Shown: positions 1,180-61,458 of the stretch, in pieces
Numbering within the stretch: position 1 is the first letter of the stretch
How the letters are laid out: each line of letters begins with the position of its first letter
Assembly (NCBI GenBank): GCA_946699065.1
Contig: CAMPDV010000136.1
Coordinates: forward strand, 248,001-312,000
Length of the DNA: 64,000 nucleotides
From: Loxodes magnus
Lineage: Eukaryota; Ciliophora; Karyorelictea; Loxodida; Loxodidae
Reading direction: 5' to 3'
Made by a program: the position numbers and the translations under genes
Notes under the pieces: generated by a model
Database searches by the model: none
Seen by the model: only the letters and a program-made list of their open reading frames with translations
What the model was told of the DNA's origin: nothing

Positions 1180-3251
1180 ATGGGGTAGAATAGTTGCTGC
1201 GAGACTAGAGAGAAAATAAATGATGATGCTTAAGAAATAGAAGAAGAGCGATGGATGGATTGCATAAGTAAGAAAAAGGAATAGAAATAGGAGAAAGAGA
1301 AAAAGAAGGAATAAAAGCAAACTCTTTTTAATATTAACCTTAATGAGAAGGAAAAGGAAATTCTCACTAACTTCAAGTCTATTTATAGAAGGTTCATTGT
1401 TAGGAGATCTTTTGATTATATAACTGAGGCTGATTATTATAACTCAGACTGAGAGATTTAAGTGGAGGGCTTGCCTTAAATTTATCCTAAGTATAATAGA
1501 GTCTATTTAATTAAAAACCCTAAGTCCTTATTCTTATGCTAAACCTTTAGCATTTAGGATGGAATTGCTTTTAACTATCATAGAGACTTTTTAACTTAAT
1601 TTAGTCATCCTAATCTAGTTGAAATCTTCGAAACTTACTAAGATGAAAGGAGCTTTAAGGCAATTTACAAATATAACAATTATATTCCTCTATCCATTTA
1701 CAAACTCACCAAGCGAATGGAAAAATTCAAAGAGCATGAAATAAAGGCATTTGCTGAACAATTGCTAGGTCTTATTTAGTACTTCCACTAGAACAATGTC
1801 ATTATAAAGTCAATAACAGCAGACCATATCTTGGTTAATCAAGAAGATCCCTTCTCTCACCCTCTAAAATTAGCAAATCTATCACTTGCTGTCAAATTTC
1901 AGTAGTCAGCGATTATTTAGAATGTAGACTATAGATATTACGGTTGCCCTGAATTTTAAATTGGACAGTAGCAATTCACCTATGCTAGCGATTTATGAGC
2001 AGCAGGCATTCTCTTATTTGAACTTTGACTTGGATATCATCCAAACGAGACACTTTAGATATGTGTTTTAAGTGATTTAGAAAGTGAGAATTATTAAAAA
2101 TAGCAAGTAGAAAGTAATGAATACATCTAAAACTGGATTTAAATAATTAAGCAGCTCAATAATAAGAAGAAGTTCTTTTCTGGAGGAGCCTTTCAGCTAA
2201 TAAGTACTTTACTTGAAGTAGATCCTAAAAATAGACTAAGTGCCAAAAAGATACTACAATTTGGGGTATTCAAATTCCTTTCTCTTAATTACGACCAATC
2301 ATTATAGATAACTGAAAAACTAATGGCTTTCTACCATCTGTCTGATAACTTAAAGTTAGTCTACAAAATTTTAATTAACAAAGTAGTTAATGAGAGCCAT
2401 TATACTTAAGTAACTTAAATGTTTAATATGATCGATAAGGATAGAAATGGATATATAACAAAATCAGAACTTAAGAATGCTGTTTTAAAGAGCCATACAA
2501 TCGATGACAACTAGTTAAATGAACTGTTCAGCGCCTTAGATTCTACATAAGACGGAAGAATAGAATTTCAAGGTAAGCATTTTATTATAGAGTTCCTACT
2601 TCTTATGACCTACGATTCTATTAACTAAATATAATTGGAAAAAGGGGCAGAGAATTTGTTTAAAAAAATTGATCAGGTAAGTTATTAATGCAGGATAAGA
2701 AGGGTTACATTAATAAAAGCTGTATTAAAACTTACTTTAGATATAATTACCAGCATGAAAAAATCTTTCTAAAGTTCTTTTGTGAAGCTTCTTAAAACAA
2801 CGATCGATTGTTTTTATAAGAATTTGTCAATCAGTTCTTAAAATATCAGGAAAACCATAATTTCATTACATAACTTTAACTGAAGAGTAAAAAATCAAGG
2901 AAGTCTTAATTTCTTCACTAAAGTTGTAATAATTTTGAAAGTCCTACAAAATTTCATGAAAAAATTAGAAATTCGACTACAAGAAGTAATCATAAAAAGA
3001 AAGCTTCAAATTAAAAAATTACACGAACGCTTTAATAAATTTATTCTTTGCAGGATATCCTTTTGTGTTAAGCGAGAAAAGCTTTAAAGTTAAATATCAA
3101 CTTAACTTTCTTCTTCCATCTTTTTTTAATTAAAAACCCTTATTAATTTTTTTATTCTTTTAGCAGTTTTACGCTAGATATTTAATTATCTAAGTTTGTC
3201 TTTTTCTTATTTCCATTATCTCAAAAGCATCATTCTTAAACACCTAACTGA
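1180..3251 (+). CDS. EF-hand pseudokinase (CDPK-like), copy K1, stop lost
   Basis: Calcium-sensor protein with a dead kinase fold. Exons are 1180-2572, 2591-2676 and 2694-3251, with 18- and 17-nt introns. The start MGQNSCCE is an N-myristoylation motif with adjacent Cys, suggesting membrane anchoring. The kinase C-lobe is recognisable: YYGCPEF replaces the APE motif, then DxWxxG follows with Trp as TGA (1996-1998). Catalytic residues are missing: the HRD loop reads IKSITADHILV, DFG reads NLS, and the beta-3 Lys seems to be Gln. EF-hand 1 (DKDRNGYITKSE) is canonical; EF-hand 2 (DSTQDGRIEFQE) is near-canonical; two degenerate hands follow. The TGA stop of K2 and K3 is CGA here (3024-3026), adding 75 residues up to TGA at 3249 (678 aa). 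The role is inferred: a Ca2+-responsive scaffold. Confidence 0.8.
2573..2590 (+). other. 18-nt spliceosomal intron
   Basis: GTAAGCATTTTATTATAG. Removing it joins exon codons to give the EF-hand end FQEF, the Glu-Phe expected at loop position 12. It is kept in all three copies (23556-23573; 53247-53264 on minus). Its length is a multiple of three, so frame alone would not reveal it. Confidence 0.8.
2677..2693 (+). other. 17-nt spliceosomal intron
   Basis: GTAAGTTATTAATGCAG, with a TTAAT branch-like core. It is needed to keep frame into the third EF-hand (DQDKKGYINKS), and is present at 23660-23676 and, on minus, at 53144-53160. Confidence 0.9.
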
Positions 3252-3454
3252 ATCTACTTTCTTATGTTTTTTCTAAATAAATTTTAACGAAAAGATACAA
3301 AAATGGTAAACTTTATCATTTTTTAATTTAAATCTCTCATGTAAAGCTTGCTTATTAGCTATTCTTACCACTTAACTAATAAAAACTCCCTAATTTATCT
3401 AGCAATTAATTCTCTTTCAAGTGTACCTTATAATTTATCATATCCTCATCTTTT

Positions 3455-4210
3455 TTGTTTGCAGGCTAATTTCTAAAAATAATGTTATTAGCATAATTGA
3501 AATTGGTTAAGCATATAGAACTACCTTCAGTATAATAAGTTTATATAACTCTAAAGTGTAAAATTTTGAAGATATGGCTCTTATAAGTATTTGCATTATA
3601 CTAATAATTGATAATTTGCTAGTATAACTAAACATGATACATCTAAGATTATATTCATATCTACTTATTGTACTTTCTATGACTACTAAGTGTATTTTAA
3701 AAGTAATAAGGGAAATAGTTAGAATACAAGTTAAAATTTAAAATTATTTTAAAGGAAATTCATATTTAATAGCCTTGTTGAAGGTATTCTAATGCTTTGA
3801 AGCAAAGGGAAATAAATAAAATCATCTATGATACTGAAGGATGTTAGTATATGAGTAGATATGAATGCATATATAATACTAAGCTTATTTAATTAAGCAG
3901 GATAGTAGAATATCAAGAAAGATGATAGCATCAAATAAGTCTAAAGGGTAATTATACACAAATTATGTAATGAAAAACATACTAAGAGTAAATAATTTAA
4001 AATAATACTAAACATTAAACACAAAAATAAGCATAAGTTAAGCTTTATTGCTTTAATAATAAAGTGATACCTGATAAATAAATCAGAAGCTATTTAATAA
4101 CCTAAGAAAATTAAATTAGAAATACAGATTTATTTAAAACTTAAAGGTTAGCATCTATATCAAAAGTATAAATATATTTAGAACAAAATTATTAAAATAA
4201 AGAAGAAGGA
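3455..4210 (+). repeat. Near-invariant segment of the kinase repeat
   Basis: About 750 bp that I read as essentially identical in K1, K2 (24424-25181) and K3 (about 51636-52393, inverted), while the flanks and gene bodies differ. No recognisable protein or RNA gene: forward frames are open only because all stop codons are readable. It may reflect recent gene conversion, a conserved non-coding element or an unrecognised RNA. Confidence 0.6.
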
Positions 4211-4907: not shown

Positions 4908-7900
4908 TCAATACATGTCTATTTCTTCAAGTAAGCCTTCAGGTAATAAAAATTCTTCTTTTATTAGTTCCATATCTTCATCATTTTCTTCTTCAATATC
5001 TCTTGTTCTTCTGTCTTCTATCTATCTACGTTTTATTGATTCTTTGTTACAAGCGTCCATTATTTTTTTTACATACTTTGCTAATTTTCGTTTCTAATTC
5101 TTTTCTTCTTAATCAAGCTTTTATAAACTCATAAAAACTATCCTTTTCCTGCTCTATAATCTTTTCCTATTTCTTTTTTTCATTCAATTTTCTTTTCTAA
5201 GTATCCTTTTTTTTCTAATATGTTTTTGATATAATCTTTTATTATCAGGTCAGTTTTAGCTCTTTTTTACTCTTCTTGGTTCTAATGAATTTTTCGAATT
5301 TTGCCGTACCTCATATTATATCAAATAGTTCCATTCCTTGTCTTTCTACTCCTATTGTTCTTAACTTTCTAATACATATTTATCTACTTTCTTTGTATTC
5401 TGAGCATTTTTCTATGATATGCCTTTCGTTTTCTCTTGCATCATTACAGAAAGGGCATTTGCTTGTCGCAACTAGGTGTCTTTCTTTTAAACAATCCTGG
5501 CTCCCATTACATCTCGTTCTTATTCTAAATATGTAGCATATTTCTTCTTTTCTATTTTTATTGTATCTCAGGTAGTTGGGTGGTCCTACTACATATTCAT
5601 CAAATCATGTTTTTCTATACTGTAGAGTTGTTATTATTTACTCCATTCTTTCTCTATCTTCTATGTATACTCTATGTTCTCAAATTGCACGATTAATGTT
5701 TTTCTTCCCTTTTTGATTATTATTACCATCATCTATAAATATATTTTTGTCTTCAATTTTTAATTCTAATTTTATTGTCGTGCAGTATTGTTCAAAAATA
5801 AAGTTCTCTTCTTTACTTAGGTCGAACATTAATCCATCTACTGTTTTTCCTTAGTTACCTATTAGTTTGCCTCTTAATCTCAGCGTTTTCTGCCATAGGT
5901 AATGTTTAAATTTCATAAACTGTAACTCGTATTCTAACATCTCATTTTACACTTAGAAAGGGGCATCTATGATTGCTCGTAAAGATCTTCTCTATATTAT
6001 TTCTAATTGTTCCATCACTTATTTTCCTACAAATTATTCACAATATGGGATAACTTCTGTCCCATAGCTGAATACTGAGCTTACGAACGTTTTTATCATT
6101 ATACCTGCGTTATATGGTGTTAATCCCTTATTCATTGTTATTTTACCCAGTATTCATGTTTACATCTTTTATGCTGCTTCTAGTCTGTTCTCCATGTGTT
6201 TTTCAAAGCTGATGGTTTCTTCTATTATATGCCCTAAGTACTAAAAGGACGTTACTCTTTCGATTCTTAAGTTTCCCACCTCAATAGTATTACCTATATT
6301 TTCTCAGTTTCTATTTTCTGCTGCTTTTCATATCATTCATTTTGTTTTATCTGCAATTTCCAGTTTGTATTTTTCTGCCCATGAGGTTAAATTTTTGATT
6401 ACTTCCTCTAATTATTCTCATTCACTTATTAAGGCTAGGTCATCTGCATATGCAAAACATCCTGCATATATTTCTTGTGTTCATCCCTCTTAGTTTTTAA
6501 AGTCTATCGTAATTCCTAGCTTTTAATCTTCCAAGCTATTGAGAAGTCTTGCTATTATTAAGTTAAATAGTCTTGGCGACGTTATGCTTCCCTGTTTTAG
6601 TCCTTTATTTGTCGCGAATGATTTTGCTATTTATTCATTGATTTTAAGTTTAATTTCTTCTTCACAGTAGAAGTTTGCTAGGAGTTTAATTATCTATTCC
6701 GGTACTTTTAGATCGTTTAGGATTTATCATATATCTTTTCTTTGCACCGAGTCGTACGCTTTCTTAATATCAACAAATATTACGAAAACATCTTTTTTGT
6801 TCCGTATTGATCATTCCTATACTGTTCTTAGGTTGAAAATTTATAGTGAGCATGATTTTCCTTTTTTAAAGCCATATTAATATTCGCTTTCATCATTACG
6901 CAGATATCCTTATAGTTGCTAGAAAATTCATGCATCTACTATTTTTAAAGCATGATTCAGTAAAGAGATTGGTCTATAATTCATCGGGTTCATCTGTCCT
7001 CCTTTTTTGTATATTAATATTATGTATTATTATTTCATCTCTTAAGGTATTACTCCCTCTTAAATCATCTTAACTATCATTTTACATGTTACTTCTGTTA
7101 GTTTTTTCCCACCTGCTAATATTGTGCCTACTTGTATTTCATCAGGTCCTGCTGCTTTTCATTTCGCCAATTAGTTGATGATTTCTCAAATTTCATATTC
7201 GTTTACCACTATTTTCTCTTGTTTAAGAATTTAGTTGGTAGCGTATTATCGCCATCTTCATACAGTTTCTACCATTCATCCCTGAAAGTATTAACATCTT
7301 CTTTTAATAAGGGTACTCATTAATTATTTCTTCTATTAAGTAAGCTTTTTAGTTTCTTCCAGATATCTGTTAGACTTCCTTTATTTACATTGTCCATAAA
7401 TAGGTTTAGTTAGTTTCTTTTATCTTTTTTTCTTGATTAAATGTATTATTATCTTACTCTTTGGTATTCTCTTTGATTCTCAATTTATTGATTTTCATTT
7501 ATTTGTTCTCTGGTCTTTACCCTTTATTTTAATTGTTTGCTGCATTTTCTAAAGATTTATTACACTATTTTGTTGTTTCTGAATATTTATATATCTTAGA
7601 GTTTTATGTTTTGAATTTTCCACATACTATTTAAACTCCTTCTTATATCTTTTTCTTTCATCATTTATAAGTCTATGTGCCGTTTAGGTTATCAATTTCT
7701 TCTTCTTAGAGATTTTCTTGTATAAATCTTTCAAATTTTTCTTATATCTCTTTTTTCTTTAATAGTAGGTAGTTTATTTTTGCTATCTTTTATGGCTTTC
7801 TTACTTCTTTACCCATTTTTACCTATATAATACCAGGCCTATGGTCACCTATTACGTATGAGTAATAAAAATCACTCTTTAACACCTTTTCTCTCATACT

Positions 7901-9058
7901 CTCTTCGATTAAAAAGTAATCTATTTTATACTCATTGTTTTAGTGAATAAAGGTACCTATTTCAGTTGGGTCTAGGCATATTAAATTATTCTGTTCCATA
8001 AACTGTGTCATTCTCTTTCCTGCTGAGTTTTTTTTCTTTGGCAGTCATTTTTCTATGTGCGCATTTCAGTCTCCTATTATCATTATATTAAGTCCTTTTT
8101 CTATTGCTTATAGTTTAAATTCATTCACTAAATTATAGAAAGGCTCGTACTGTTCGTTGTTATTTGCAACAGGAGCGTAGACATTTATTACTGCTAATTA
8201 TTTAATTATTTCTATTGCCATTACTCTCGCTCCTCCAAAGAGCGTCATTTGGTTTACTTCATTCTATATCTCTCTGATCTCCTTACATATGTCGTTTCTA
8301 ATATAGAAAGCTACTCCTTTTCCTTTTTTTGATCCCACATTTATTAAGTTTTTATATCCTGCTATATTACACATATCTTTTTAGTCTTCAATCTAAATTT
8401 CTTATATTGCCATTATGTGGATACTTTTTTGAGTCATGAATTTGGCTAGTGCCTCTTTTGCACTTCTTACTCCCCTAACATTTGCTGTCCCTATTTTTAT
8501 GACTTATTCTTAATCTTTTTTTACACTCATTCCCTCTACTTCCTCTTCACCTTATTCTTCTTTTTATTCATCTTCCTTCTCCACCTTTTTTTCTTCTTAT
8601 CTATCATTCTATGCTTCCATATTATTTTCTTTATTAGTTCTTTCCCCTTTTTTGTCTTTTTCATCTTATTATCTACCTTTTCCTTCTTCTTATCTATTCT
8701 AATCTTCTTCTTTTTCCTTTTCCTATTAGTTGAAGTTGGATAATTGTTCATTTTTGTTTATCGGTTTCTTAGCATAGTACATTCTCATTGAAGTTTGCTT
8801 CAATTTACTTCTTTCTTCTCACTTTTATCTTGCATCTTATTCTTTTTCTTCTTGAGTTTGTTCTATTTCTTTTTGCTTTTTTTCTTTATTTACGTTTTTC
8901 CTGACATACTCCATTATACTATTTTGTTTATTTCTTATTTCTTTTGTTAGGGTTTAGCGTTTTTACCATCACCTATCCTATCCTTTTCTCTAATTTGCTT
9001 TATGGTATATCTTATTATTTAGTTGCTTGTTTTCTATTTTATTTAATTATTTGAACAT
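4908..9058 (-). CDS. LINE ORF2: endonuclease and reverse transcriptase, frameshifted
   Basis: Target-primed retrotransposition enzyme of about 1380 codons. In order: a basic coiled-coil N-terminus; AP endonuclease (about 8480-7800) with TANVRG, AIQEI, NVYAP, GDWNAH (Trp TGA at 8066-8068), KIDYF and GDHRPG; a linker; reverse transcriptase with AKWKAAGPDEI (about 7160), NYRPISLLN, DIKKAYDSV (about 6746-6772), QGSITSP, FAYADDLAL (6439-6450), KTKWMIW and FQYLGHII; and the zinc finger CPFC-x8-H-x4-C (5403-5457). The acidic tail ends EEIDMY then TGA at 4908. More than twenty Trp codons are TGA. Frameshifts lie in T7 (7425-7431) and T8 (5063-5070). All catalytic motifs are present. The start is the ATG at 9058, but similar-looking sequence continues upstream. 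Confidence 0.9.
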
Positions 9059-9165
9059 TTCTCTATCCCTCTGTCTTACATATGTCCAATTTCATTTTGA
9101 TGAAAAATAATTTTTATTTATTCTTTAAGCATAAAAAACTTTTTATTATTTAATTGTTTAGTTGT

Positions 9166-9184
9166 AATAATAATAATAATAATG
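9166..9184 (-). repeat. TTA microsatellite between ORF1 and ORF2
   Basis: A short trinucleotide run at the end of the ORF1 unit. The same kind of run forms the 3' end of retroposons B (48882-48900) and C (61437-61450), so it marks the boundary of the ORF1 module. Confidence 0.8.
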
Positions 9185-9214
9185 TAAACTAAATGTTAAG
9201 AGTTTTGGAGTTCT

Positions 9215-9297: not shown

Positions 9298-9300
9298 AAT

Positions 9301-9981: not shown

Positions 9982-9994
9982 TTTTTTATATTCT

Positions 9995-20926: not shown

Positions 20927-23900
20927 AGAATCTTTATTAATTTTATGAAGCTCAATACCTTTTCTCTTATCTTTTTGGTTCAGATATTCTTTCTCTTTCT
21001 CATTCTAAATTTTTTTATTATTGAAAGATAGGTAAAATTTACTTGAAGATATTACAATATCATACTCTACTTTAGGTAAATTGATTTTAGAATAACAATT
21101 AACTAAATATTTTCCCTTTATAATTTTATTCTATTTTCTCTACTTTAAAATAAATAATTTATTAAGTTTAATTACCTTTGTTTCAATTGTTGCAGAGGAA
21201 ATATGTTTTAGCAAGAGATGTATTACATAGCTTCTTGCTTCAGATACAATAAACTTTTTATTTTTGATCTAATATTTATATTTTCAAGGTTAATTTATTA
21301 CCTTTTATGCTTAAATAACCTAGAATAATCAACTTTTATTTTATATCTTAAAAAGCATTTACCAATAAATCTCAGGCTTTAAATATCTTAATTTTCTAAG
21401 CTATTTCTAAAATTTAACTAATTAGCCTATAAAATTAACTATATAACACCTTATACTCCAATTTCTGTTTCTTACCCTGTCCACATAAATATTTATAGAA
21501 CAAATTATTAATTTTAAAACTTTTCATCTCAGTCTTCTTAATTTAGATTCCTATAAGATCTGAAATATTTAAGCAAAGCTATTGCTTCATATCTTAAAAA
21601 TGTAAAATCCCTTTATTTTATATCCTATTAAGTTTGGACTTTATTTAGCAGACAGTGTAAATAGCAATTCTAAAACTTGTATATTAAGTACGTAAATTTA
21701 TCCCTATTTTTTAACGGATATTAACTTAGCATTTTCTACATCTTATATAAGACTTAAGCCTGCTTTAATTACCTCTTCTTAGTTTTAAAATTCTACTAAT
21801 TAACCAACTAATTTTTCTAATTGAGTATTCCTCTATTGCCTTACTTATCTATCTGACTATCCGTATTTTTTAATAACTCTACCCGCTTAATATCCTTTAA
21901 TTTCCTAGTTACCTAATAGTTTTACTTAGCTACCTTAGTTTTAGCAATTAATAGCTTTTACCTTTTACCTTAAATATTTACTAGATTACATCCTTTAATT
22001 TTAAAGGCAGCTTACAAGATATAAACATTTAGATGTAGCTCTATGATAGATGTATAAGAGGCAGTTTGTTAATGCTAAGCTAAACGTATAATGGCTAGCT
22101 TTAAATGAGCGCTTACAATTATTTGATGGTATATTTGTTTATTAACGTATTCTCCATTTATAATGGGGTAGAATAGTTGCTGCGAGACTAGAGAGAAAAT
22201 AAATGATGAGGGTTAAGAAATAGAAGAGGAGCGATGGATGGATTGCATAAGTAAGAAAAAGGAATAGAAATAGGAGAAAGAGAAAAAGAAGGAATAAAAG
22301 CAAACTCTTTTTAATATTAACCTTAATGAGAAGGAAAAGGAAATTCTCACTAACTTCAAGTCTATTTATAGAAGATTCATTGTTAGGAGATCTTTTGATT
22401 ATATAACTGAGGCTGATTATTATAACTCAGACTGAGAGATTTAAGTGGAGGGCTTGCCTTAAATTTATCCTAAGTATAATAGAGTCTATTTAATTAAAAA
22501 CCCTAAGTCCTTATTCTTATGCTAAACCTTTAGCATTTAGGATGGAATTGCTTTTAACTATCATAGAGAATTTTTAACTTAATTTAGTCATCCTAATCTA
22601 GTTGAAATCTTCGAAACTTACTAAGACAAAAGGAGCTTTAAGGCAATTTACTAATATAATAATTATATTCCTCTATCCATTTACAAACTCACCAAGCGAA
22701 TGGAAAAATTCAAAGAGCATGAAATAAAGGCATTTGCTGAACAATTGCTAGGTCTTATTTAGTACTTCCACTAGAACAATGTCATTATAAAGTCAATAAC
22801 AGCAGACCATATCTTGGTTAATCAAGAAGATCCCTTCTCTCACCCTCTAAAATTAGCAAATCTATCACTTGCTGTCAAATTTCAGTAGCCGGTGATTATT
22901 TAGAATGTAGACTATAGATATTACGGTTGCCCTGAATTTTAAATTTGATAGTAGCAATTTTCCTATGCTAGTGATTTATGAGCAGCAGGCATTCTCTTAT
23001 TTGAACTTTGACTTGGATATCATCCAAACGAATCACTTTAGACATGTGCTTTAAGCGATTTAGAAAGTGAGAATCCTTAAAAATAGCAAGTAGAAAGTAA
23101 TGAATACATCTAAAACTGGATTTAGATAATTAAGCAGCTCAATAATAAGAAGAAGTTTTTTTCTGGAGGAGCCTTTCAGCTAATAAGTACTTTACTTGAA
23201 GTAGATCCTAAAAATAGACTAAGTGCCAAAAAGATACTACAATTTGGGGTATTCAAATTCCTTTCTGTTAGTTACGACCAATCATTGTAGATAACTGAGA
23301 AGCTAATGGCTTTCTATCATCTGTCTGATAACTTAAAGTTAGTCTATAAAATTTTAATTAACAAAGTAGTTAATGAGAGCCTGCAGACTTATGTAGCTTA
23401 AATGTTTAATATGATCGATAAGGATAGAAATGGATATATAACAAAATCAGAACTTAAGCATGCTATTTTAAAGAGTCATACAATCGATGACAGCTAGTTA
23501 AATGAACTGTTCAGCGCCTTAGATTCTACATAAGACGGAAGAATAGAATTTCAAGGTAAAAATTTTATTATAGAGTTCCTACTTCTTATGACCTACGATT
23601 CTATTAACTAAATATAATTGGAAAAGGGGGCAGAGAATTTGTTTTAAAATATTGATCAGGTAAGTTATTAATGCAGGATAAGAAGGGTTACATTAATAAA
23701 AGCTGTATTAAAACTTACTTTAGATATAACGAACAGCATGAAAAAATCTTTCTAAAGTTCTTTTCTGAAGCTTCATAAAACAGCAATCAATTGGCTCGTT
23801 AAGATTTTATCCAATAGTTCTTGAAAAATCAGGAAAACCATAATGTCATTATGTAACTTTAGCTGAAGAGCAAAAAATAAAGGAAGTCTTAATTTCTTCA

Positions 23901-38506: not shown

Positions 38507-40834
38507 TCATTTACTAGAGTTATTCGTTGTAGGAAGTTAGCTTAATATCTTTTAGATATCTTCGGTTACATTCTCCTACTATATTTTGCCAGAGATTATA
38601 CTAAGGATTGTTTTTATGGCATCAATGCTCCCTAGTACTGCAGCATCGTTCTTGTATAATTATTTTTAAGTGCTAGCTTGGAAAAATTAACTAAATAAGT
38701 CTAGGAGATTTTTGTTTTTCCAGTACTCAATTAAGCTGTTTGAGCTGATTTTTATTAGTTATACTTTATTACTTAATGTGATTTTCTCTGCTATCCTCAT
38801 TACAACACTTTCTCTCTGACTTGGATGAACAGCAATAATATTTAGAATCTTGTTCGCCTATTCTATGATGTTGTCTTCCTTTATTTACTAGACTAATGAT
38901 AAGATCTATTATCCTGATTCTCCTATTTCACTTTATTTTTCCTTCATCTTTGCATATCCATTTACTGCAGCCAGAATAATAGAAGTTTCAGCTGCTATTT
39001 TACCTGAGCATATCTATTCAGCCTCTTTCATAACTGCTTATAGTCTACCATAATAAACATCATAATAACTTTTAAGTAAAGCATTATTCTCTATTTAAGG
39101 ATTAACGCTCATTAAATAGATTCCTATATCTGCCTTTTCTAATCCTACTCTAAATTTTTTTTCTAGTTCTTTAATATTTCCCTCTTAGATTTCAAGCAGA
39201 TGAGTCAACTAAGTTTCTGAAACTGATTGCTTAGGCATAAGTACATCAACGAGGCTGCAAATGTCCATATTTTTCTAGACTTTTAATTCTTAAAACTCTG
39301 ACGTGAACTAATGTAATTAGGCTTGAGGACTATTTTGACTAATCTACTTCAACTTTTCTTCAACATTGACAGAAACTTCTTATATCCTCCTTATTTTTTC
39401 AATAAGTATCAATAGCTTTTTGCTTAATTTTTCATCCATATTTTGAAACTATTACTAATTTTTATCAGTTCCTTAACCTTTACTCAGGATTAATTAGTAA
39501 GCTTTGTTAAAGTCTCTTAAAGCATCTTTCTCCTCTCCCAATTCTATTAAAACTTTAGATCTGTTACAGTAGTATAAAGCTTTGCTAGGTTCAATCTTTA
39601 TGGCTTTGTTATAGTGTTCTAGTGCTTCTTATTTTCTCCCTAAACCTTAAAGAGCAATTGCTTTGTTTAATAGAGCTTCATGGTAATAAGGGTTAATGCT
39701 TATTATAGAATCATAGCATTAAATCGCTTCCTCTTTCTTTCCAATATCTTATAGAGCGATGCCTTTATTAAAATAGGCATCTACGTAATTATGATTATGC
39801 TTAATAGCAACATCATAGCTCTCAATAGCTTCTTTATACTTATTCATTTTCAGCAAAGAATTGCCTCTATTGTTATATGCAGCAGCATTTTAAGGGTTTA
39901 AGTTAATTACTGTATCATAGCATTTTATAGCTTCTTCATACTTCCCTAGATCCTGCAAAGCAGCTCCTTTATTAATTAATGCTATTGAATAATTGGGATT
40001 GACTTTAAGACCAATGTCATACTATTCTAGTGCCTCTTCTAACTTTCCTAAATTTCAAAGAGCATAACCTTTGTTTATGTAGTTCTAAATATAATGAGGG
40101 TTGAGCTATATTGCTGTATCATAGTCTTTTATAGCTTCTTGAAACTAATTAAGGATTAATAAACTGTTTGCCTTATAGCTGAAACCTTCATAATTCAAAG
40201 GATCAACCTAGATAGCCTTGTTAAAGTGTTCAATTGCTTCTTCAACCTTACCTAAGCTCTCAAGGAGCGTACCTTTGTTTAAGTAAGCAAGTACGTATTT
40301 ATCATTGATCTAAAGTGCACTATCGTAGCACTTAATTGCCTCTTCTAATCTGTTTAAGTCTTAAAGAACTATACCCTTGTTCACCCAAATAGCCTCTTCT
40401 TTAGGATTATGCTTAATAGCATCTTCATAGCACTCAAGTGCTTAATCTTTCTGTCCTAGCACTTAAAGTACATGTCCCTTGCTCATATAAGCCTTAACAA
40501 AATCAGGTTTAAGCTAAATTGCAGAATTATAAGCATCAATTGCTTCCTCCGTTCTTCCTAGATCAAATAAAGCGACTCCTTTATTGTAATAAGCATTGAC
40601 ATACTTCTCATTTAGTTTAATCGCAGTATTAAAGCACTCAATGGCTTCCTCTTTTTTCCCTAGTTCTTAAAGTAGATTCCCTTTAAAGTAATAAGCAGCT
40701 TCATTGTTAATATTCTTCTTAATAGCAGAATCTAAGCATTCTATAGCCTCATTCTTCTTCCCCTTCTAGTATAGTATATTAGCTCGCTTTATTAGGTATT
40801 TAGGACTTGATTTAAATATCTAAGCTGCTCCCAT
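38507..40834 (-). CDS. TPR-repeat protein, 775 aa
   Basis: Intact single frame from ATG (40834; MGAAQIFKSSPKY) to TGA (38507-38509). Residues about 10-440 are thirteen tandem 34-residue tetratricopeptide repeats, e.g. AYYNKGVALFDLGRTEEAI, with the usual W/L-G-Y-A-F-A-P pattern (NKG, LG, EEAI, YD, NP). The remaining 335 residues are helical and coiled-coil, without a catalytic motif. Repeat 8 has Trp encoded by TGA (40055-40057), while Trp codons elsewhere are TGG. TPR superhelices bind partner proteins; ciliates carry many such genes, often linked to cilia or signalling, but this one's partner is unknown. The second residue is Gly, though position 6 is Ile, so myristoylation is doubtful. Confidence 0.92.
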
Positions 40835-43800
40835 TTTTATCCTCCTAAGTGATTCAAAAATGAGTCTATTTTTAAATAGAGCTTAGATAGTACGATTGAT
40901 ATAGATAGGCTAGCTAAAGCTTGTAGACAAACTCATAATAAAATAAAAAACTAGAGATAAAGCGAGTTTCTTAAGCCTTTGCTATAATGCTTGATCTTAG
41001 TTAGCTAAGCAAATAGCTTATATAATAGGCTTGCATTAACTTAAATATACCTAGCGGCTAATTTGAAAATAAAGCTTTGATTCAATCTAAAATAAATAAG
41101 GAAAGCATCAGATAAGTAAAATGCATACTCTAGACTAAAAAATTCAGTCATTTGAAGATCTGAATTAGTTTGGAAATATTTAAAGAAAGAAATAACGAAT
41201 AGTCAGTATTTTAAGATGCCTTCTTAGGCTTTAAGACCTATTTTAAAACAGATAAATAGATTCTTTAGAACATTTTATTTAAAGATTTGAGTTGAATTTA
41301 AGTAGAGAAAAGGTAATCCTTCAAAAATATAAAAGCGATTGGTTGTATAACCAACAAAAGGAATAAAATGTAAATAAATCCCAGATTTGATTAAATTTAG
41401 TAGGAAATATCTAAAAGTCCTTTGTCATAATCTACAGAAGTCTACAATTAACCAAATTTTCTTGTATTATCTCTCTTATGTTCAATTATTTTCAAGCTAC
41501 CAAGTTTAAAAGGTAAATTCTTGAATCCAATGCTATTAAAAAAGACGAAGCTTCTAGAAATTGTTCTAAAGATCAAATTTTGTTGGGCTTTTTACAGGTA
41601 TTATAATATCTACAATGCTTGATCATCCTTTTAGATAGACAGGGTTATAATGAATCCTATCTCATATTTTTAAGTTTTCTCTTTTAATAAAAAACAACTT
41701 TGACTATTTTTGTTTGATATATGCACTCCTGTTCTATACCATCACTTGACTAAATTATGTCCTAAAGTTTGACGTTAAATTAAATAGAGTAAACGTATCT
41801 TTTTGAAAAGAGTCTTAACTAAGCTAGTAGAAAAGCCTAATACTTCTTTATTTAAAAGCAAAGCACGATGTACAAGAAATAAAGGTGCAAGATATTAAGC
41901 TGGATTAGGCTAAAATTATCTAGTTGAAAAAAAACCTATCCTGTTACACTTGCTTAGTATATAACTAACTAAAAACAATCTTTTATAGAAAATTCAGGCC
42001 AAAAGACTTAGAAATGCTAGCCTTTTCTTCTTCTAATTGAAAATTAAACCGTTATCTATAGTATTTTAGCTTTAAACTTGATATTGGATATGATTAAAAC
42101 TAAATATACCTAAACTAATTATTTAATTAGATTAAAAACTAAATCATGTTGATTATATTATTCTTGAATACACTCTAGTAGTTTGATGATCTGTTTCTCT
42201 CGATCTTTGTTTTAAGCTATTCTTCGAATTTCTATCTTATATATAAAGCTCTTAGAAGACATTTCTTTTAATTAAAACTCATTAATTTGCCTTTTTAAAC
42301 AGAAAGCTACTACAATTTTTTCTTAAGTATTGTCTTATCATCAGCCTTATATTTGAAAATTAAGCTTTATAATGTCTTAAAAAACTATTCAGCATTAAAG
42401 ATCTAAATTAAAGGCTATTTTCGACGATTTCTCTTAATTCTATTTTACTCTAAAAGGTTACATCTATCTTTTATATATCAGCTTAAATACACTTAAAGAA
42501 GAGGGCTCTTAATTAGTGGAAAGCTATAGAAAATTAAGGAAAAAGTAAGGAAAAAAAGGTTATAAGTAAAGTGTTAAAACTTGAATAAGGCGATTATTTA
42601 TTCTACTTATCATTTCTGATATTAAGCATTGCTTAAGACATAAATTGGTTATATGGTATAGTTATAAGAGTTTTTATTGGAGTTTACGTAATTTTGTAAC
42701 AATCACAATTTAAGCCACACTAAGTTATTATGTTATAGATTAAAATCTAAAGCTATCATTCTGGTTTAAAGCTGCAAATAAATAAAGAGCTTAATTTTTA
42801 TGAAATTTGAAGGGATTATTTTCTCTCTATAATCTTAGCTTAGCATACTTCAGGTAGAAAGACTTATAAGATTATCTTATGATAAGGCATATTAAAACTT
42901 AATAAAATATTTCTTAGGATTATTTCCTTGCTTCTGAATATATTTTAGTACTAACATCACTTCTACTATCTTGACATTCCTTCTTCTTTATCACTTCACT
43001 GCCTTCCTTTAAATATTTACTTTTAGATTCTTTGCTTAATTTAGTTGCTTTTATCACCTTTTATTCTTCTTAATATATCCTACTTCTCTAGATTATGTAG
43101 GACTTATTAAATAGAAGTTATATGAGAGGTAAGTAAATGCTTTATACTGATAATAATGATATTAGATATTGTAACCTTAAGTGAAAACTGAGATTCTAAT
43201 TGATTTCTATTTCACTACTATATTGCAGCAAACATTTTGCTGTTATTACTTTCTACTACTAAGTGCTATGGTTATATATTATTACCATTAAACTCCAAAT
43301 GATGTACTTAGTGACTGACAAAGTGGACGCTTTGTTATTTTTTTAATCGAAGCAGACTGGATTACTTTATCGTGCTAACTTAAGTATCTTATTATGGGAG
43401 TTTCGATTTCCATTCTTCCAAAAAGATAATTTAATATATGGGAAAAATCTCGTTTTGACATATTGATAAGAATTCAAGGTATCGCAAGCTAATAACATAC
43501 TTGCTTTCAATGGGAATTATAAAAAGAGAAAAAAGAGGAAAGGGATGAAAAAGATTGGAGTTCAGATAGTAATAGATGTTTGAGTAATTTCAGAAACTGT
43601 TAATTATCTATATTATAATGCTACTCTAAATACAGTTTATATCATAACTTCACTAGAATTAATCTTCATAGTTTAATTATCCTTTTTTATCTTTCTCTAT
43701 TTCTTTTATAGAAGGAACAACTTTGCGAATTCTAAGGGCTTTTTTCTGTTTAGACTGTGGTTTCTATTTATGTGAAAAGATTAATAAAGCATTTGAAAAT

Positions 43801-48900: not shown

Positions 48901-48930
48901 ATACTTAAAGTTAGTAGAGTTTTGCATTCT

Positions 48931-49013: not shown

Positions 49014-49014
49014 G

Positions 49015-50120: not shown

Positions 50121-50842
50121 ATCCTTTGATATTCTGAATAGTTTTCATCTTGCATGTAGTCCTAATTATTTCTCCAAGGATTAAGATTTGAATTAAAGAA
50201 TTTTTTTCTATAAATGTTTCCGCTTTATGTTGGATATATCCTAAATAGTTTTCTAAAAATATCTTATTTATTCTTTCTTTAAATTTCGCTTAGTTAGTAG
50301 CAGTATTTTCATTGGTGTTATTTATTGCACACGTAGCATTTTATTCTTCTTTTAAACTATTATTCCTGTAACACTTATTTAATTTAAATTTACTACTTAT
50401 TTTAAATAAACGTTTACTGTTTATTTTAATTTGAGGCTTCATTTTCTATTTCCATAGGATCTGATTAATTCTGTTAAATCGAAAATGGCGTAACCTGAAT
50501 TTATTATTAAATTTAAAGAATTCTTTGTTCCAGTTTGTTTTCTATTTCTTATGATTATTAGTATTGTTTCTCAAGTAAAGACGTTATTAGTTTTTCTAAT
50601 TTTTCTACATTATCAGTGAGGTATCTATTTTTAAACATAAACTCTTTTAATGACTTAGATAATATTTCTATTTGAGTTTGTGTCGGAAGTTTTTTTAGTT
50701 CTGGATTTCCAAGTGGTTAATGTTCGTCATATCAATCATATTTCTCACTTTCACTCATTGTAATTATTTCGCTTTTTTATTTTTTAGAAAATTTTCCTGT
50801 TTAAATGTTTTGTTCAAAGTTCTGTTATTTCTTAGAAGCCAT
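50108..50842 (-). CDS. ORF1 zinc-knuckle protein of retroposon D
   Basis: 244-aa intact frame, ATG 50842 to TGA 50108-50110. MASKKQQNFEQNIQTGKFS leads to a coiled coil (LTDNVEKLEKLITSLLEKQ), a Gln-rich stretch, and a knuckle CYVCNKQHQWKYC (CX2CX3HX4C, one residue shorter than in B; Trp is TGA). IYPTQSGNIYRKKFF corresponds to the ITPTGIYKQKLF motif of B. This is a distant member of the same family with the clearest stop codon. Presumed RNA-binding. Confidence 0.75.
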
Positions 50843-50850: not shown

Positions 50851-53800
50851 TATAATAATCTTAGCTTTAGATTCTATAATATAAAGCTATGATAATATCT
50901 TATAGATAAAGCTTCATAGCAAGCAAAGATATTTTAGATATTAATATTTTAAACAGGACTTAAAGCTTAAAGTTTGATAAGATATAATCTACAATATTTA
51001 TTATCATACTATATATTATAACTAAATATAGATTGATATTACAAAATGCTTAAATATACCTTAATATTTTTATAATGATTGACTTTAAGATATTTAGATA
51101 AAAACCATTATTATGTAATTTAAGATTATAGATTAAGTCTCATAGTTATATAAGTCATATTATTGCCAAATGAAATATAGTAATTAAGTTCTAAAAAACA
51201 AAATGGTTATAAATGATTTATTGAAATTAATTAAAAAAGTATCTATAATTTTATATCAATCAGATCTTTTATAAGCTCTAGCTTGCTGAAGATTAGCTCT
51301 TTATTTATTAACTTGCCGAGTTTCTAGAAAATTTTAGTTTATAGTTAAATAAATCTATTAGTACATCTGATACTATCTCCTTTTCTTTATATATGGTAGC
51401 AAAATTTTCAGCTTAATTATTAAAATCAGAAATTTGAGAATTCGGTACAAATAAAATATTTAATTTTCCCTTAAAAAAGTCTCTTAAAGAATATTATAGA
51501 AACTAACAGAGTATTATCTTGACAATAAAGTAATACTTAGTTCTTTTAACTATATTAATTACGAAAAAATTTGTTTTTTTAGATAATGAAATTTGAAGCT
51601 TGTTTTAAATAAAAGTTAGAGCTTTTTGAATTTCTTCTTCTTTATTTTAATAATTTTGTTCTAAATATATTTATACTTTTGATATAGATGCTAACCTTTA
51701 AGTTTTAAATAAATCTGTATTTCTAATTTAATTTTCTTAGGTTATTAAATAGCTTCTGATTTATTTATCAGGTATCACTTTATTATTAAAGCAATAAAGC
51801 TTAACTTATGCTTATTTTTGTGTTTAATGTTTAGTATTATTTTAAATTATTTACTCTTAGTATGTTTTTCATTACATAATTTGTGTATAATTACCCTTTA
51901 GACTTATTTGATGCTATCATCTTTCTTGATATTCTACTATCCTGCTTAATTAAATAAGCTTAGTATTATATATGCATTCATATCTACTCATATACTAACA
52001 TCCTTCAGTATCATAGATGATTTTATTTATTTCCCTTTGCTTCAAAGCATTAGAATACCTTCAACAAGGCTATTAAATATGAATTTCCTTTAAAATAATT
52101 TTAAATTTTAACTTGTATTCTAACTATTTCCCTTATTACTTTTAAAATACACTTAGTAGTCATAGAAAGTACAATAAGTAGATATGAATATAATCTTAGA
52201 TGTATCATGTTTAGTTATACTAGCAAATTATCAATTATTAGTATAATGCAAATACTTATAAGAGCCATATCTTCAAAATTTTACACTTTAGAGTTATATA
52301 AACTTATTATACTGAAGGTAGTTCTATATGCTTAACCAATTTCAATTATGCTAATAACATTATTTTTAGAAATTAGCCTGCAAACAAAAAGGTGCAAGAT
52401 AAGCTAAGTTTGAAAAGGGAATTAATTACTAGTTTAGCTAGTAGATTAGTTTTATAGATAAAAATAGCTAATAAGTTAGTATTGAAATGAGAGATTTAAA
52501 TTAAATAAGGATAAAGTTTGCCATTTTTGTATCTTTCCGTTAAACTTTAAGTTTGAAATTAATATAAGAAATTAGATTTAATAGATGTTTAAGAATGATG
52601 CTTTTAAGATAATTCTTTTAAGAAAAAGACAAACTTAGATAGCTAAATATCTGGTGTAAAACTGGTAAAATAATAAAAATATTAGTAAAGGATTTTAATT
52701 CAAAAAAAAGATGGAAGAAGAAAGTTAAGTTGATATTTATGGTTAAAGCTTTTCTCGCTTAGCCCAAAAGAATATTTTTCAAAGGAATAAATTTATTAAA
52801 ACGTTCATGTAATTTTTTAATTTAAAGCTTTCTTATTCTTTTTATTATTTTCTCTTGGAGTCGAACTTCTAATTTTTTCATGGAATTCTCTAGAACTTTC
52901 AAAATTATTACAACTTTAGTGAAGAAAAAAAGTTTTCCTTTATTTTTTGCTCTTCAACTAAAGTTATATAATAATATTATGGTTTTCCTGATTTGTTAAG
53001 AACCATTTGATAAAGTCTTAACGAGTTAATTGATTGCTGTTTTATGAAGCTTCAGAAAAGAACTTTAGAAAGATTTTTTCATGCTGGTAATTATATTTAA
53101 AGTAAGTTTTAATACAGCTTTTATTAATGTAACCCTTCTTATCCTGCATTAATAACTTACCTGATCAATATTTTAAAACAAATTCTCTGCTCCTTTCTCC
53201 AATTATATTTAGTTAATAGAATCGTAGGTCATAAGAAGTAGGAACTCTATAATAAAATTTTTACCTTGAAATTCTATTCTTCCGTCTTATGTAGAATCTA
53301 AGGCGCTGAACAGTTCATTTAACTAGTTGTCATCGATTGTATGGCTCTTTAAAACAGCATTCTTAAGTTCTGATTTTGTTATATATCCATTTCTATCCTT
53401 ATCGATCATATTAAACATTTAAGTTACTTAAGTATAATGGCTCTCATTAACTACTTTGTTAATTAAAATTTTGTAGACTAACTTTAAGTTATCAGACAGA
53501 TGGTAGAAAGCCATTAGTTTTTCAGTTATCTATAATGATTGGTCGTAATTAAGAGAAAGGAATTTGAATACCCCAAATTGTAGTATCTTTTTGGCACTTA
53601 GTCTATTTTTAGGATCTACTTCAAGTAAAGTACTTATTAGCTGAAAGGCTCCTCCAGAAAAGAACTTCTTCTTATTATTGAGCTGCTTAATTATTTAAAT
53701 CCAGTTTTAGATGTATTCATTACTTTCTACTTGCTATTTTTAATAATTCTCACTTTCTAAGTCTCTTTAAACACATGTCTAATGTAATTCGTTCGGATGA

Positions 53801-55925
53801 TATCCAAGTCAAAGTTCAAATAAGAGAATGCCTGTTGCTCATAAATCACTAGCATAAGTGAATTGTTACTGTCCAATTTAAAATTCAGGGCAACCGTAAT
53901 ATCTATAGTCTACATTCTAAGCAATCACCAGCTAGTGAATCTTGGCAGCAAGTGATAGATTTGCTAATTTTAGAGGATGAGAGAAGGGATCTTCTTGATT
54001 AACCAAGATATGATCTGCTGTTATTGACTTTATAATGACATTGTTCTAGTGGAAGTACTAAATAAGACCTAGCAGCTGTTCAGCAAATGCCTTTATTTCA
54101 TGCTCTTTGAATTTTTCCATTCGCTTGGTGACTTTGTAAATGGACAGTGGAATGTAGTCATTATATTTGTAAATAACCTTAGAATTCCTTTCATCTTAGT
54201 AAGTTTCGAAGATTTCAACTAGATTAGGATGACTAAATTAAGTTAAAAATTCTCTATGATATTTAAAACCAATTCCATCCTAAATTCTAAAGGTTTAGCA
54301 TAAGAATATTGACTAAGGATTTTGAACTAAATAGACTCTATTATACTTAGGATAAATTGAAGGTAAGCCTTCCACTTTAATCTCTCAGTCAGAGCTATAA
54401 TAATTATCCTCACTTACATGATTAAACTAGCTCTTAATAAAATATCTTCTATAGATTGAATTGAAGCTAGATAGAATTTTCTAATCCTTCTCACTAAGGT
54501 TAATATTAAAAAGAGTTTACTTCTATTCCTTCTTTTTCTCTTTCTCTTTCTCCTATTTCTATTCCTTTTTCTTACTTAGACAATCCATCCATCGCTCCTC
54601 TTCTATTTCTTAACCCTCATCATTTATTTTCTCTCTAGATTCGCAACAACTACTCTACCCCATTTTAAATGGAAGACTGTATTTCTACGCTAATAAACAA
54701 ATATGTCATCAATCAATTATAAGCGTTTATCTTATAACTAAGCCAATGATATTCGTTTACTTAGCATTAGCAAATTGCCTCTTATATATCTCAATCATAG
54801 AGTTACATCTAAATACTTATATCTTGCAAGCTGCCTTATAAAAATAAAGGGCATAATCTAGTAAATAGCTAAGACATAAGGTATCAATTGTTAAAACTAA
54901 GGTAATTAAGTAAATTTATTAGGTAAAAGGGGATTAAGATATTAAGCTAAGACGATTATTAAAAACATATGGATAGCGATTAGATAAGTATGCTAATAGA
55001 GGAATAATCAGTTAGACAAACTAGCTGTTTATTAGTAGAATTTTTACATTAAGAAGAGGTAATTAAAATTGGTTAAAGTCTTATATAAGATGTAGAGAAG
55101 ACTGAGCTATTATTTGCTATTAAATAGGGATAAATCTAAGTACTTAATATACAAGTTTGCGAATCGCTATTTACACTGTCTGCTAAATCAATTCCAAACT
55201 TAATAGGATATAAAACAAGTGATTTTATATTTAAGATATATAGCAATATCTATGTTTGAATTTCTTCAGATCTTATAGGGATATAAACTAAGAAGCAAAG
55301 GAATGCAAATTTATAAAATTAATAATTTTGTTCTCATGATTAGAAAATGTATTCAGATAGTATAAGAAACATGTAATTTGGAGTATAACTTGTTATATAG
55401 TGAATTTTATAGGTTAATTAAGTTAAATTTTAGAAATAGCTTTGAAAATTAAGGTATTAAAAGTCTGAGATGTACGGGTGAATGTTTTTAAGATATAAAA
55501 TCAAAAGTTTATCATTCTAGGTTGTTTAAGCAACTGAAGTGATAAATGAACCTTGGAGTTAATATTAGAAACAAAATAAAAAGTTTATTGTATCTGAAGA
55601 AAGAAGTTTATGTGATTATATAAAGCATCTTCAGTCGAGGTCTAACTTCCTTTGTAACAATTGAACTAAGGGAATTAAATTATAATAAATCAATTATTCA
55701 AAGTAGGGAAAAATAATAAAGCTTTTAAGAGCAAATTTTTAATTAATAGTTATTCTAAAACCAATTGATAGGCTACTTAAAGTCAAATATTATAATGTAA
55801 TAGCTTCAAGGAAATTTTACCTATCTTTTGATAATAAAAAAAGTTAGAATGAAAAAGAGAAAAAATATCTGAAGTAAAAGGATAGGAGAAAAGGAATTGA
55901 GCTTCATAAAATAAATAAAGATTCT
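50851..55925 (-). repeat. Kinase repeat unit, copy K3 (inverted)
   Basis: Reverse-strand copy of the unit, the most diverged of the three in its gene body, yet with the same near-invariant segment (about 51636-52393). Confidence 0.9.
52805..54663 (-). CDS. EF-hand pseudokinase, copy K3 (intact)
   Basis: Exons on minus: 54663-53265, 53246-53161 and 53143-52805, giving 607 aa ending in TGA (52805-52807). The start MGQSSCCE keeps Gly2, Ser5 and the two Cys. Indels relative to K1/K2 are whole codons, introns are at identical positions, and all three internal TGA Trp codons are kept. The activation-loop region YYGCPEF and DxWxxG are retained, as is the absence of HRD and DFG. Conservation of frame in the most diverged copy argues that the protein is, or recently was, under selection. 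Confidence 0.85.
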
Positions 55926-58565: not shown

Positions 58566-60083
58566 TCAGCGTAATTCTCGAAATTTAATGTTTTTGAACA
58601 ATAATCCTATTAGTGGTCCTTTATCATACCAAGATTGATGGCCAAATTCTGTTCGAATATTTTAAGTATCTAAAAACTCTAATTTGAAATCTTTTAAACT
58701 GACGTTATGTATAAAATATTTTTTTGGTACCTTATAAAATTAATCATCCTTTAGTTCTATCATTAAGGTGTAAGGTACATCTTTTTAAACTTCAGCTACT
58801 CCTTATTAAAATATTAAATTCTGAAATCCTTCCTCTTTATAATATTTCAATTTAAAGTTTTAATTTGGAATTTAAATTCTATCTTATTCGGATTATTTAG
58901 CTTAATTACCTTTATATAATTCCAGCTTTTTAAATAGCAAGATCTATGATCCTTAAAATCATTTAAAGGAAAAACCTGCCAGAATGCAGTTTTTGTTTGT
59001 TTTAAAAGTTAAGAAGCAAGGTAAATCATTTACCTATTAAAGTTCAAAATCAGCAGATTATCCTCTATTAAATTCAATAATTTAGGATTGATTATCTTCT
59101 TGTACTTCATCATACATTTACTTAAATTTAATTTCATTCTACTAAGCTTCTTCAGACATAAAGGGGCTTTTAAATAATAGCTAAATTTGAAGAAATAATT
59201 CCTTATATCTTCCATTATTTTCTTCTACACTCTTGCTTTATATTTTATCGTATTATTTTACTCATTCTACGGCTTCTTATACTTCATATAGAGCTTGCTA
59301 TCTTATATAATCCTCAAATGTAAATTCTACTGTTTAGCTTTATTGCTTTGATAACTATAAAGGTTGAAACTAAATCTACTATTAAAGGCTATTTCCGCTG
59401 TATTTTATTTTAATTTCTTAGATATCTTTGACGGTAAAGAAATAGCAATTAGTTATTAGTTCTTATAGTTACTGACTGTTTATTTAGGTCTTCAGCCTTT
59501 TTTTCGTTAGCTGAGTTATTTCTTAACTTTCTCTTTTAAGCTTTATTAAAAATACCAGTGGCTGTTATTGGATATTACTTAGTTATCCTTACATTAAGCT
59601 CTCTTTCTGTTTTTGACATAATTGATCTATTTTAGCTCCCTTAGTAATTATAAAATGCTTTGTGGTTTCACTGTACTGAGTTATTTAGTTTAGCTAAGAT
59701 TGAAGTTAGTTAATAGATTTCTATTTTTCATCCTTCAGTTTTTGTATAATTATGGGAAACTAATTATATATTAAAGACAACTCTATCTTCTAGCTCTATA
59801 ATCTCTCTTTAAGAGCATTGATGCTTTATACTTGTTTGCTGCTTTTCTGAAACTAAACTAATCTTCACAAATTATCTGAAATTAGTAAGTTCTGTCTCAA
59901 CCTTTAATAGTCACTTTCGGAAATCTTCTAGTCAAAAGGACACTAAACTCCAAGATAGCCTCAGTTTTACTAGCAGCACTACAAACATAGAGTATGTCCA
60001 CAGTTAAGAACCTTAGGAATATTATTCTAATCATTATAATTAGCTTTGCATTTCTTGCACTGAAAAAGGCTGAAAATTTACAT
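58566..60083 (-). CDS. RING finger-coiled coil-PHR-like protein, copy B
   Basis: 505 aa, ATG 60083 to TGA 58566-58568. Residues 1 to about 320 are almost identical to copy A in DNA (I noticed only a base or two of change), including the C3HC3D RING with TGA-encoded Trp41. The C-terminal domain differs at about half its residues but keeps LPCFLTFKTNK, GFSFKW (Trp TGA), LIFQQGVAEV, YTLMI, EFGHQSWYD and GPLIGLLF. It ends IKFREL-Arg-TGA, without the TGA cluster of copy A. An ancient duplicate whose front half was recently overwritten by gene conversion fits best. Confidence 0.85.
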
Positions 60084-60478
60084 CTTTATCTATGAAACTT
60101 AAAATTAAAGCTTACTTAAGCAAAAAAGGGATAAACTTTATTGAAATCCTTTCTATTGTAAATAAAGATATCCTTTCTATTATAAACATAGAACTAGTTT
60201 ATTACCATAAACAACTAGCTTAAGGAATAACCTTATAAGCATAACTATGCTTCATTAGATTTTACTACTGCTCCTTACTTTTATGATTTATTTAGTTTCT
60301 TAGTCCATTTATTAACTTCTTACCCTCATTATTACCTTAGAAACCAAATTCTTTAAAACTAAGAAGCAGGCTATAGAAAGTTATATAGGATAGCTTGATT
60401 AAGGTTAATTTCATACTGTATATTAAGCTTATATCATCAGATTAAAGCTATGTGATTAAATATAAACCTATATTTATT

Positions 60479-61458
60479 AACCTCATAAAAAATGGTTGAA
60501 GGCTTCAAGTCACTTCTATACCACATCTTCCTAAGCCAAAAAGGAAGGGAGGAAGCAAGAAACAAAGTCTTAATAATCTTAACAATCTTCTCTATCACAA
60601 CCTTAACCAGCACTGAACAATAACTTGGAATCTAACAAAACGAACGAAAGCCAACCTTGAAGAATATACACACGGAAACTCCAACCTCAAGCGAGAAACC
60701 AAGGAAACAGATGAAATCTGTTCTCCATCAGGAGGTATCAGAGTTCAACCCTTCTGGCCAGATGAGCATGGAGTAGCTCATCAAAGTGGTACTGAACATC
60801 CAGGAAGAGATCAAGAGATTAAAGAAGGACAATAATATGCTGATGGCAAAGCTAGACTTAGCAGAAGGAATTGAATCAAGACTTATGTCCTAGGAAAGAA
60901 ATCCTAACGCCTTTTGGAATATCTCACAAAGTCAGACTAACGAATCCTAAAATTAGTTTTAGAAACAGACTGAACTGGATAACAGACTTGAAAAAGTAGA
61001 AGAGAAATTATAAACTTTTAAGAAAGAGTAAAGCGAAACTGGAGCTATACAAATGGAAATCGAAGCCTAGAAAGAGCAAACAAATCAAGGAAAATAATTC
61101 AAAATAAAAAAGAAATGTTTCTGCTGTGGAAGCGTATGATATTTTTATCGAAGTGTTAGAAATTCTAATAGAAATAAAGAAACTATTGGATAAAAGAACA
61201 ACAAATGAAGAAAAAAGAAGAAGGAAGAATGAAAAGAATGTATTGCAGCCCGGATGGTTCAATATACAAGATTAAGATGGAACCAAGGCAAGTTAAAGGA
61301 GGGAAAACCTGGAAAAATCCGAGTTCCCAATCTCGCTAAAATTGGGCGACCAAACTTTTATATTTAACAAAAGAGAGCATGAACTGCAGTATTCCTGACA
61401 AGTAGAAATCCCTAAAACGGAAAACTTAAAATTAAAATTATTATTATTAATAAACCTC
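60479..61458 (+). mobile_element. ORF1-only retroposon C with 6-bp target duplication
   Basis: A 968-bp insertion (60485-61452) between two copies of AACCTC (60479-60484, 61453-61458); RING unit A is uninterrupted at the same place (31944-31949). Sense is plus, with the ATG almost at the 5' edge and an ATT/TTA repeat tail (61437-61450). It is visibly richer in G+C than its surroundings. Near the 3' end a TTGG-GCGA-CCAA hairpin with a GNRA loop lies at 61342-61353. Confidence 0.88.
60492..61262 (+). pseudogene. ORF1 of retroposon C, frameshifted in the zinc knuckle
   Basis: MVEGFKSLLYHIFLSQKGRE opens a frame through EKPRKQMKSVLHQEVSEF and a strong coiled coil (LNIQEEIKRLKKDNNMLMAK; LDNRLEKVEEKLQTFKKE) to a knuckle starting CFCCGS at 61116. 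There the knuckle His reads Tyr, and one indel shifts the last Cys into another frame (CQKFQQKQRNYWIKEQQ), where MYCSPDGSIYKIKM, the family's post-knuckle motif, follows. So the copy is probably non-functional, unless the shift is an assembly error. Confidence 0.7.

Follow-up and report, generated by a model that had tools for sequence, protein, structure and literature searches.

All three stop codons as sense codons in a 64-kb DNA stretch, probably under the karyorelict genetic code

In the karyorelict ciliate Loxodes magnus UGA is the sole stop codon and also encodes tryptophan; its introns have a mode of 17 bp with a negligible share below 16 bp (heterotrich introns being 15–16 bp), its GC content is 33.5% in coding sequences and 18.6% in 3' untranslated regions, and it carries ~2,700 RVT_1 and ~1,200 Exo_endo_phos_2 copies (PMC11441545). 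Comparable systems are Condylostoma magnum (NCBI table 28), in which all 64 codons can be sense and UAA is also a stop (PMC4967479), Amoebophrya sp. ex Karlodinium veneficum, of a parasitic dinoflagellate lineage, in which the three stops are sense, probably Gln, Gln and Trp (PMC12005148), and the Blastocrithidia nonstop code (table 31), in which the three stops are sense with TGA as Trp and TAA and TAG as Glu (PMC12153298). Here we analyse the genetic code of a 64-kb stretch of DNA (the window; contig CAMPDV010000136.1, positions 248,001 to 312,000), whose genes share with these systems the use of all three stops as sense codons. We propose, with a probability of about 0.88, that the window belongs to the nuclear DNA of a karyorelict, in all likelihood Loxodes or a close relative, whose code is NCBI table 27. 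As this code has already been described, the window clearly illustrates an oddity that was known before and adds no new one.

Under the standard code (table 11) there are 0 closed open reading frames (ORFs) of at least 120 amino acids in any frame of the window, which bears out the claim of a first-pass annotation that ordinary gene finding is nearly blind here. A codon-usage model trained on the window's own genes marked 32% of it as coding. Reading through all three stops, with TAA and TAG as Gln and TGA as Trp in the translation used for the Pfam scans, uncovered a TPR protein, three EF-hand kinase-like paralogues (copies A, B and C), two RING-like paralogues (RING_A and RING_B) and a decayed long interspersed nuclear element (LINE; Table 1). 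Pkinase, TPR_1 and RVT_1 domains run across the stop codons with E-values that chance would not give (Table 1), TAA and TAG being frequent within the matched spans: 13 TAA/TAG and 2 TGA in the 224 codons of the Pkinase span of copy A, 4 and 0 in the 55 codons of the kinase EF-hand span, 19 and 1 in the 447-codon TPR region, 6 and 1 in the 46-codon RING span, 12 and 8 in the 262 codons of the LINE reverse transcriptase and 7 and 2 in the 219 codons of its endonuclease.

When the three kinase copies are aligned, the sole gap in exon 1 is of 6 nt and in frame, compared with 55 gap columns in 342–1179 and 55 in 2884–4800 outside it. Third positions take 25 of 48 substitutions between A and B (p 0.0056), 47 of 97 between A and C (p 0.0014) and 51 of 110 between B and C (p 0.0031), the three comparisons not being independent, and downstream of the last in-frame TGA they take 16/31, 8/15 and 17/31 in the three pairs. 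Since the frame is kept and the third-position excess persists past the in-frame TGAs, TGA is a sense codon there. In five host coding sequences the gene's own frame contains fewer TGA codons than at least one of its two forward alternatives (1 against 14 and 37 in the TPR gene, 3 against 2 and 24 in kinase copy A, and 5, including a terminal one, against 6 and 19 in RING_A). If TGA were only a stop, as in table 6, the in-frame TGAs would be marks of pseudogenes. The frame-shifted LINE copy, in which 10 of 13 aligned TGA columns show no Trp preference, would suit such a code, but three TGAs are common to all kinase copies (a fourth is in copy B only) with constraint continuing downstream, and the TPR array is intact beyond its sole internal TGA, rendering table 6 very improbable. 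We conclude that TGA is sense inside constrained genes, and the first-pass claim that all three stops are read as sense holds, with domains crossing them and the kinase frame kept.

The meaning of TAA and TAG was approached by rescoring Pfam families with the stop codons read as other residues. RVT_1 scored highest with Gln (123.2; Lys 117.1, Glu 115.0, Tyr 103.9, Leu 101.5), and so did Pkinase (85.7; Lys 84.5, Glu 83.9, Tyr 73.8, Leu 72.3), whereas EF-hand_1 leans to Lys (40.1 vs 38.2 for Gln); Tyr and Leu are excluded by the rescoring. A LINE profile built from 63 of 120 homologues, those of at least 880 amino acids, gave Gln 31.0 bits, Lys 26.0, Asn 18.6 and Glu 7.9 over 41 TAA/TAG columns, and 15.1, 13.2, 9.5 and 5.2 bits, respectively, over 16 CAA/CAG control columns; TAA alone (32 columns) gave 24.7 for Gln and 19.0 for Lys. 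As a control of this profile, the right residue came first for 34 of the 43 sense codons having at least four columns, with CAA among the 9 misses (Lys first, 9 columns). Codon changes among the kinase copies were discarded as a discriminator, since 44 of 114 variable columns are synonymous when TAA and TAG are read as Gln, 47 when read as Lys, 42 as Glu and 43 as Tyr or Leu. Two observations weigh against glutamine: TAG alone (9 columns) gives Lys 7.0 and Gln 6.3 in the LINE profile, and the TPR families slightly favour Glu over Gln (TPR_1 324.3/323.6, TPR_2 282.9/278.1, TPR_8 238.3/228.4). When CAA and CAG were read as Glu in a TPR control, TPR_1 changed by 0.0 bits, there being only three such codons in the repeats. 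The TPR scores would fit a Blastocrithidia-type code, with TAA and TAG as Glu, TGA as Trp and TAA ending genes, and such a code exists (PMC12153298). Yet Gln exceeds Glu by 23 bits over the 41 LINE columns, by 8 bits in RVT_1 and by 1.8 in Pkinase; outside the TPR repeats it is the better fit, and we give table 31 next to no credence. TAA and TAG behave like CAA and CAG, glutamine being the best reading overall; the earlier view that they fill Gln positions agrees with their frequency inside real domains and with the top rank of Gln over the LINE columns and in RVT_1.

Which residue TGA encodes is a separate matter, the evidence of the window being much stronger for a sense codon as such than for tryptophan. 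Among ten residues tried in Pkinase (copy A), Trp scored best (85.7), followed by Phe 83.1, Tyr 82.9, Leu 80.4, Cys 78.2, Ser 76.6, Gln 76.6, Arg 75.8, Gly 75.1 and Lys 75.0, and the residue after DL in this kinase motif (DLwAAG in all three copies, w being TGA) is Trp in three printed structure alignments. In the zinc knuckles of LINE ORF1, read by eye, CwCC occurs in two copies (9464 and 49179) where others have CYYC, CYVC and CFCC, and HQwKYC, with TGA, stands opposite HLWQKC, with TGG; these lend modest support to Trp. Several scores go the other way. TPR_1 gave Phe 325.8, Arg 324.4, Tyr 324.3, Leu 324.1, Trp 323.6 and Cys 322.2; zf-RING_5 gave Leu 28.1, Phe 27.6, Arg 27.5, Tyr 27.1, Trp 26.3 and Cys 22.5; and RVT_1 gave Phe 126.9, Leu 126.5, Cys 125.5, Arg 124.9, Tyr 124.8 and Trp 123.2. 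In the LINE profile Trp is positive in 3 of 13 TGA columns (3.64, 2.66, 0.47), the sum for Trp being about -10.6 bits, with Met (0.8) and Tyr (0.0) best. The 0.47 column is that of the endonuclease motif GDWNAH, where homologues have F (0.24) and L (0.20).

It is conceivable, on these scores, that TGA is sense and encodes another large residue, Phe, Tyr or Leu. Summed over Pkinase, TPR_1 and zf-RING_5, Phe leads with 436.5, ahead of Trp 435.6, Tyr 434.3, Leu 432.6, Arg 427.7 and Cys 422.9, and RVT_1 too favours Phe. However, exchanging zf-RING_5 for zf-RING_UBOX (Trp 25.3, Arg 24.1, Tyr 23.4, Leu 23.4, Phe 22.6, Cys 20.2) puts Trp in the lead, 434.6 vs 431.5 for Phe, and with the kinase column, the two knuckles in which TGA meets TGG, and Trp published for karyorelicts (PMC11441545), we regard this reading as having very little chance. 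Slightly less improbable, and still distinctly unlikely, is the broader alternative of a karyorelict-like code whose TGA stands for some other large or aromatic amino acid, or of a table-27 code in a lineage other than karyorelicts. We therefore retain tryptophan, which fits the most diagnostic column, that of the kinase, best of all and is expected from the literature, though not proven by the window; beyond that column we infer it. The first-pass annotation had placed TGA at conserved Trp sites of independent proteins, for which there is less evidence than it stated. The motifs lie where it said (TGA of GDWNAH at 8068-8066 on the minus strand, the kinase and CwCC sites given above, FSFKw in both RING genes and a single TGA in the TPR array, at 40057), but only the kinase column is clearly a conserved Trp, as GDWN is mostly F or L among homologues and the TPR site is best read as Phe among six residues. 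Counting TGA at Trp columns of aligned homologues, as it had proposed, favours Trp in the kinase and fails in the LINE, which we rejected as evidence on this point. As the LINE copy shifts frame between endonuclease and reverse transcriptase, its TGAs may be plain mutations.

For termination we used a coding signal from a codon model in which stop codons scored zero and from whose training the gene under test was left out. The RING_A signal peaks 9 codons before TGA 30048, and no stop-type codon other than TGA lies near its end, TAA and TAG being absent between 30132 and 30009. At this end RING_A has TGA, TGA, two codons and TGA, where RING_B has in the same columns CGA, GAA, two codons and TGA. 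In the TPR gene the signal peaks 9 codons after TGA 38509, and TAA lies 4 and 2 codons upstream and 2 downstream of this peak; the RING_B peak comes 59 codons ahead of TGA 58568, adjoining a TAA, and the frame of this gene continues past its TAA codons to that TGA. Removal of a 16-nt GT..AG segment would bring the kinase frame to a TGA common to the three copies. Against TGA as the terminator, the stop-type codon closest to where the signal ends is TAA in both the TPR gene and RING_B, and the kinase ends at TGA only if the unproven 16-nt intron is accepted.

These same points would be expected of a Condylostoma-type code (table 28), in which the sense meanings are the same and genes end at TAA and TAG too, close to the 3' end of the mRNA: the TPR gene has TAA at most 2 codons from where its signal ends, RING_B has one a single codon past that point, and without the second intron copy A has no in-frame TGA until 3249. 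Against it, RING_A can only end at TGA, in difference to Condylostoma, where UAA is also a stop. Moreover, after the RING_B TAA the two RING genes align without gaps over 171 columns (57 codons), in which the gene frame is the most conserved of the three (BLOSUM 176 vs 108 and 118; third position 21/47, p 0.07), and the kinase intron of 17 nt differs from the 15–16 bp of heterotrichs (PMC11441545). We consider table 28 unlikely. Returning to table 27, TGA as terminator is clearest in RING_A and partly shown, and the case for TGA as sole terminator is thin. It had been claimed that five gene families end in TGA only. Of the three families we examined, RING_A supports this, the TPR gene and RING_B are compatible with it, and the kinase agrees only if the tentative second intron is accepted.

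The window resembles Loxodes magnus in TAA/TAG as Gln, in TGA as probably both Trp and terminator, in a 17-nt intron and in GC-poorer 3' flanks (27–32% GC in coding sequences, 10–25% in four 60-nt flanks after the supposed stops), as well as in a LINE copy carrying both RVT_1 and Exo_endo_phos_2 (PMC11441545). The TPR gene does not show the published scarcity of TAA ahead of stops, for TAA lies there 15 and 10 codons upstream of TGA 38509; a single gene is no test of this feature. No feature tested contradicts the L. magnus code, and the match to the karyorelict code that had been suggested is upheld by the sense reading of all stops, by Gln as the best reading of TAA/TAG and by TGA as the sole stop-type codon near the end of the RING_A signal. 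In such a code TAA and TAG would be read as Gln and TGA as Trp inside genes, whereas a TGA near the 3' end of the mRNA would terminate the gene. By analogy with the literature, the tRNAs reading these codons would compete with the release factor eRF1, and nearness to the poly(A) tail, the published model for karyorelict ciliates, may be the switch between the two meanings of TGA.

The kinase triplication sits in large repeats of up to ~5 kb (1180-2883, 22163-23866 and, on the minus strand, 54663-52954). From its sequence, the 17-nt intron is probably spliced out. In a structure alignment the catalytic positions look changed, reading IIKSITAD in place of the usual HRDLKPEN and NLS in place of DFG, and because of these altered motifs the gene may be a pseudokinase. 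Protein searches with the kinase gave no match at E <= 1e-3 among 5819 and 3517 candidates, and a viral-contig scan gave one weak match. The RING copies (30034-31950 and 58566-60484, minus strand) share 1348 of 1349 aligned bases over one part, compared with 383 of 567 in the 3' part; the abruptness of this drop points to a recent conversion or to a duplication that was chimaeric, and the zf-RING_5 matches of both fall under the curated cut-off.

Several LINE ORF1-like segments are present (9165-9994, 48921-49675, 50027-50831, 60489-61641 and 63121-63998), most of them with CCHC-type knuckle motifs and with at least four different sequences among them. Inverted duplicated stretches of ~1.1 kb and 80–85% identity, to which no gene was assigned, lie at 16903-19269 and 56917-62848, and coding-like codon use with no credible Pfam family is seen at 34900-35680 and 44369-45557. 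The Pfam scans covered the named genes and 20 further read-through stretches out of the six frames, the latter yielding one weak match (LRR_15, E 0.0051). Rfam gave no match at the gathering threshold, and no tRNA was found in the window.

Table 1. Positions of the genes, domains and introns discussed, numbered from the first letter of the window.
Feature	Position	Strand	Evidence and remarks
Kinase copy A, exon 1	1180..2676	+	499 codons, 3 TGA (2 in Pkinase span); Pkinase E 4.6e-24, EF-hand_7 E 4.4e-11; frame kept in three copies
Kinase copy A, intron	2677..2693	+	17 nt, GT..AG; identical in three copies; removal restores EF-hand loop
Kinase copy A, exon 2 up to tentative second intron	2694..2833	+	reading after the 17-nt intron
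Kinase copy A, tentative second intron	2834..2849	+	16 nt, GT..AG; GT and AG in all three copies; unproven
Kinase copy A, likely terminator TGA if 16-nt intron is real	2881..2883	+	TGA at this column in three copies
Kinase copy B, exon 1	22163..23659	+	499 codons, 4 TGA; Pkinase E 7e-24
Kinase copy C, exon 1	53161..54663	-	501 codons, 3 TGA; aligned to A and B (Pfam scans covered A and B)
LINE reverse transcriptase domain	6223..7008	-	8 TGA in span; frame differs from endonuclease; RVT_1 E 1.5e-35
LINE endonuclease domain	7835..8491	-	2 TGA in Pfam span; Exo_endo_phos_2 E 1.2e-10
RING_A	30046..31548	-	4 internal TGA; end at TGA 30048-30046 or one of next two TGAs; zf-RING_5 E 5.3e-5; TRIM32 chain match E 3.7e-9
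TPR protein	38507..40936	-	one internal TGA (40057-40055), first TGA after array 38509-38507; TPR_1 E 7.2e-100, 12 stretches
Zinc-knuckle-like stretch, LINE ORF1	50300..50338	-	TGA opposite TGG of copy at 63656; read by eye
RING_B	58566..60083	-	4 internal TGA; TGA at 58568-58566; zf-RING_5 E 1.4e-4
Zinc-knuckle-like stretch, another LINE ORF1	63656..63697	+	TGG at that column; read by eye

As in-frame TGA says nothing in favour of Trp when the LINE copy holding it is decayed, a code of this kind should be judged on paralogues under constraint. The triplicated kinase-like gene lends itself to testing TGA as sense and as stop within a single gene, and the window as a whole illustrates why the usual gene calling fails on such a code.

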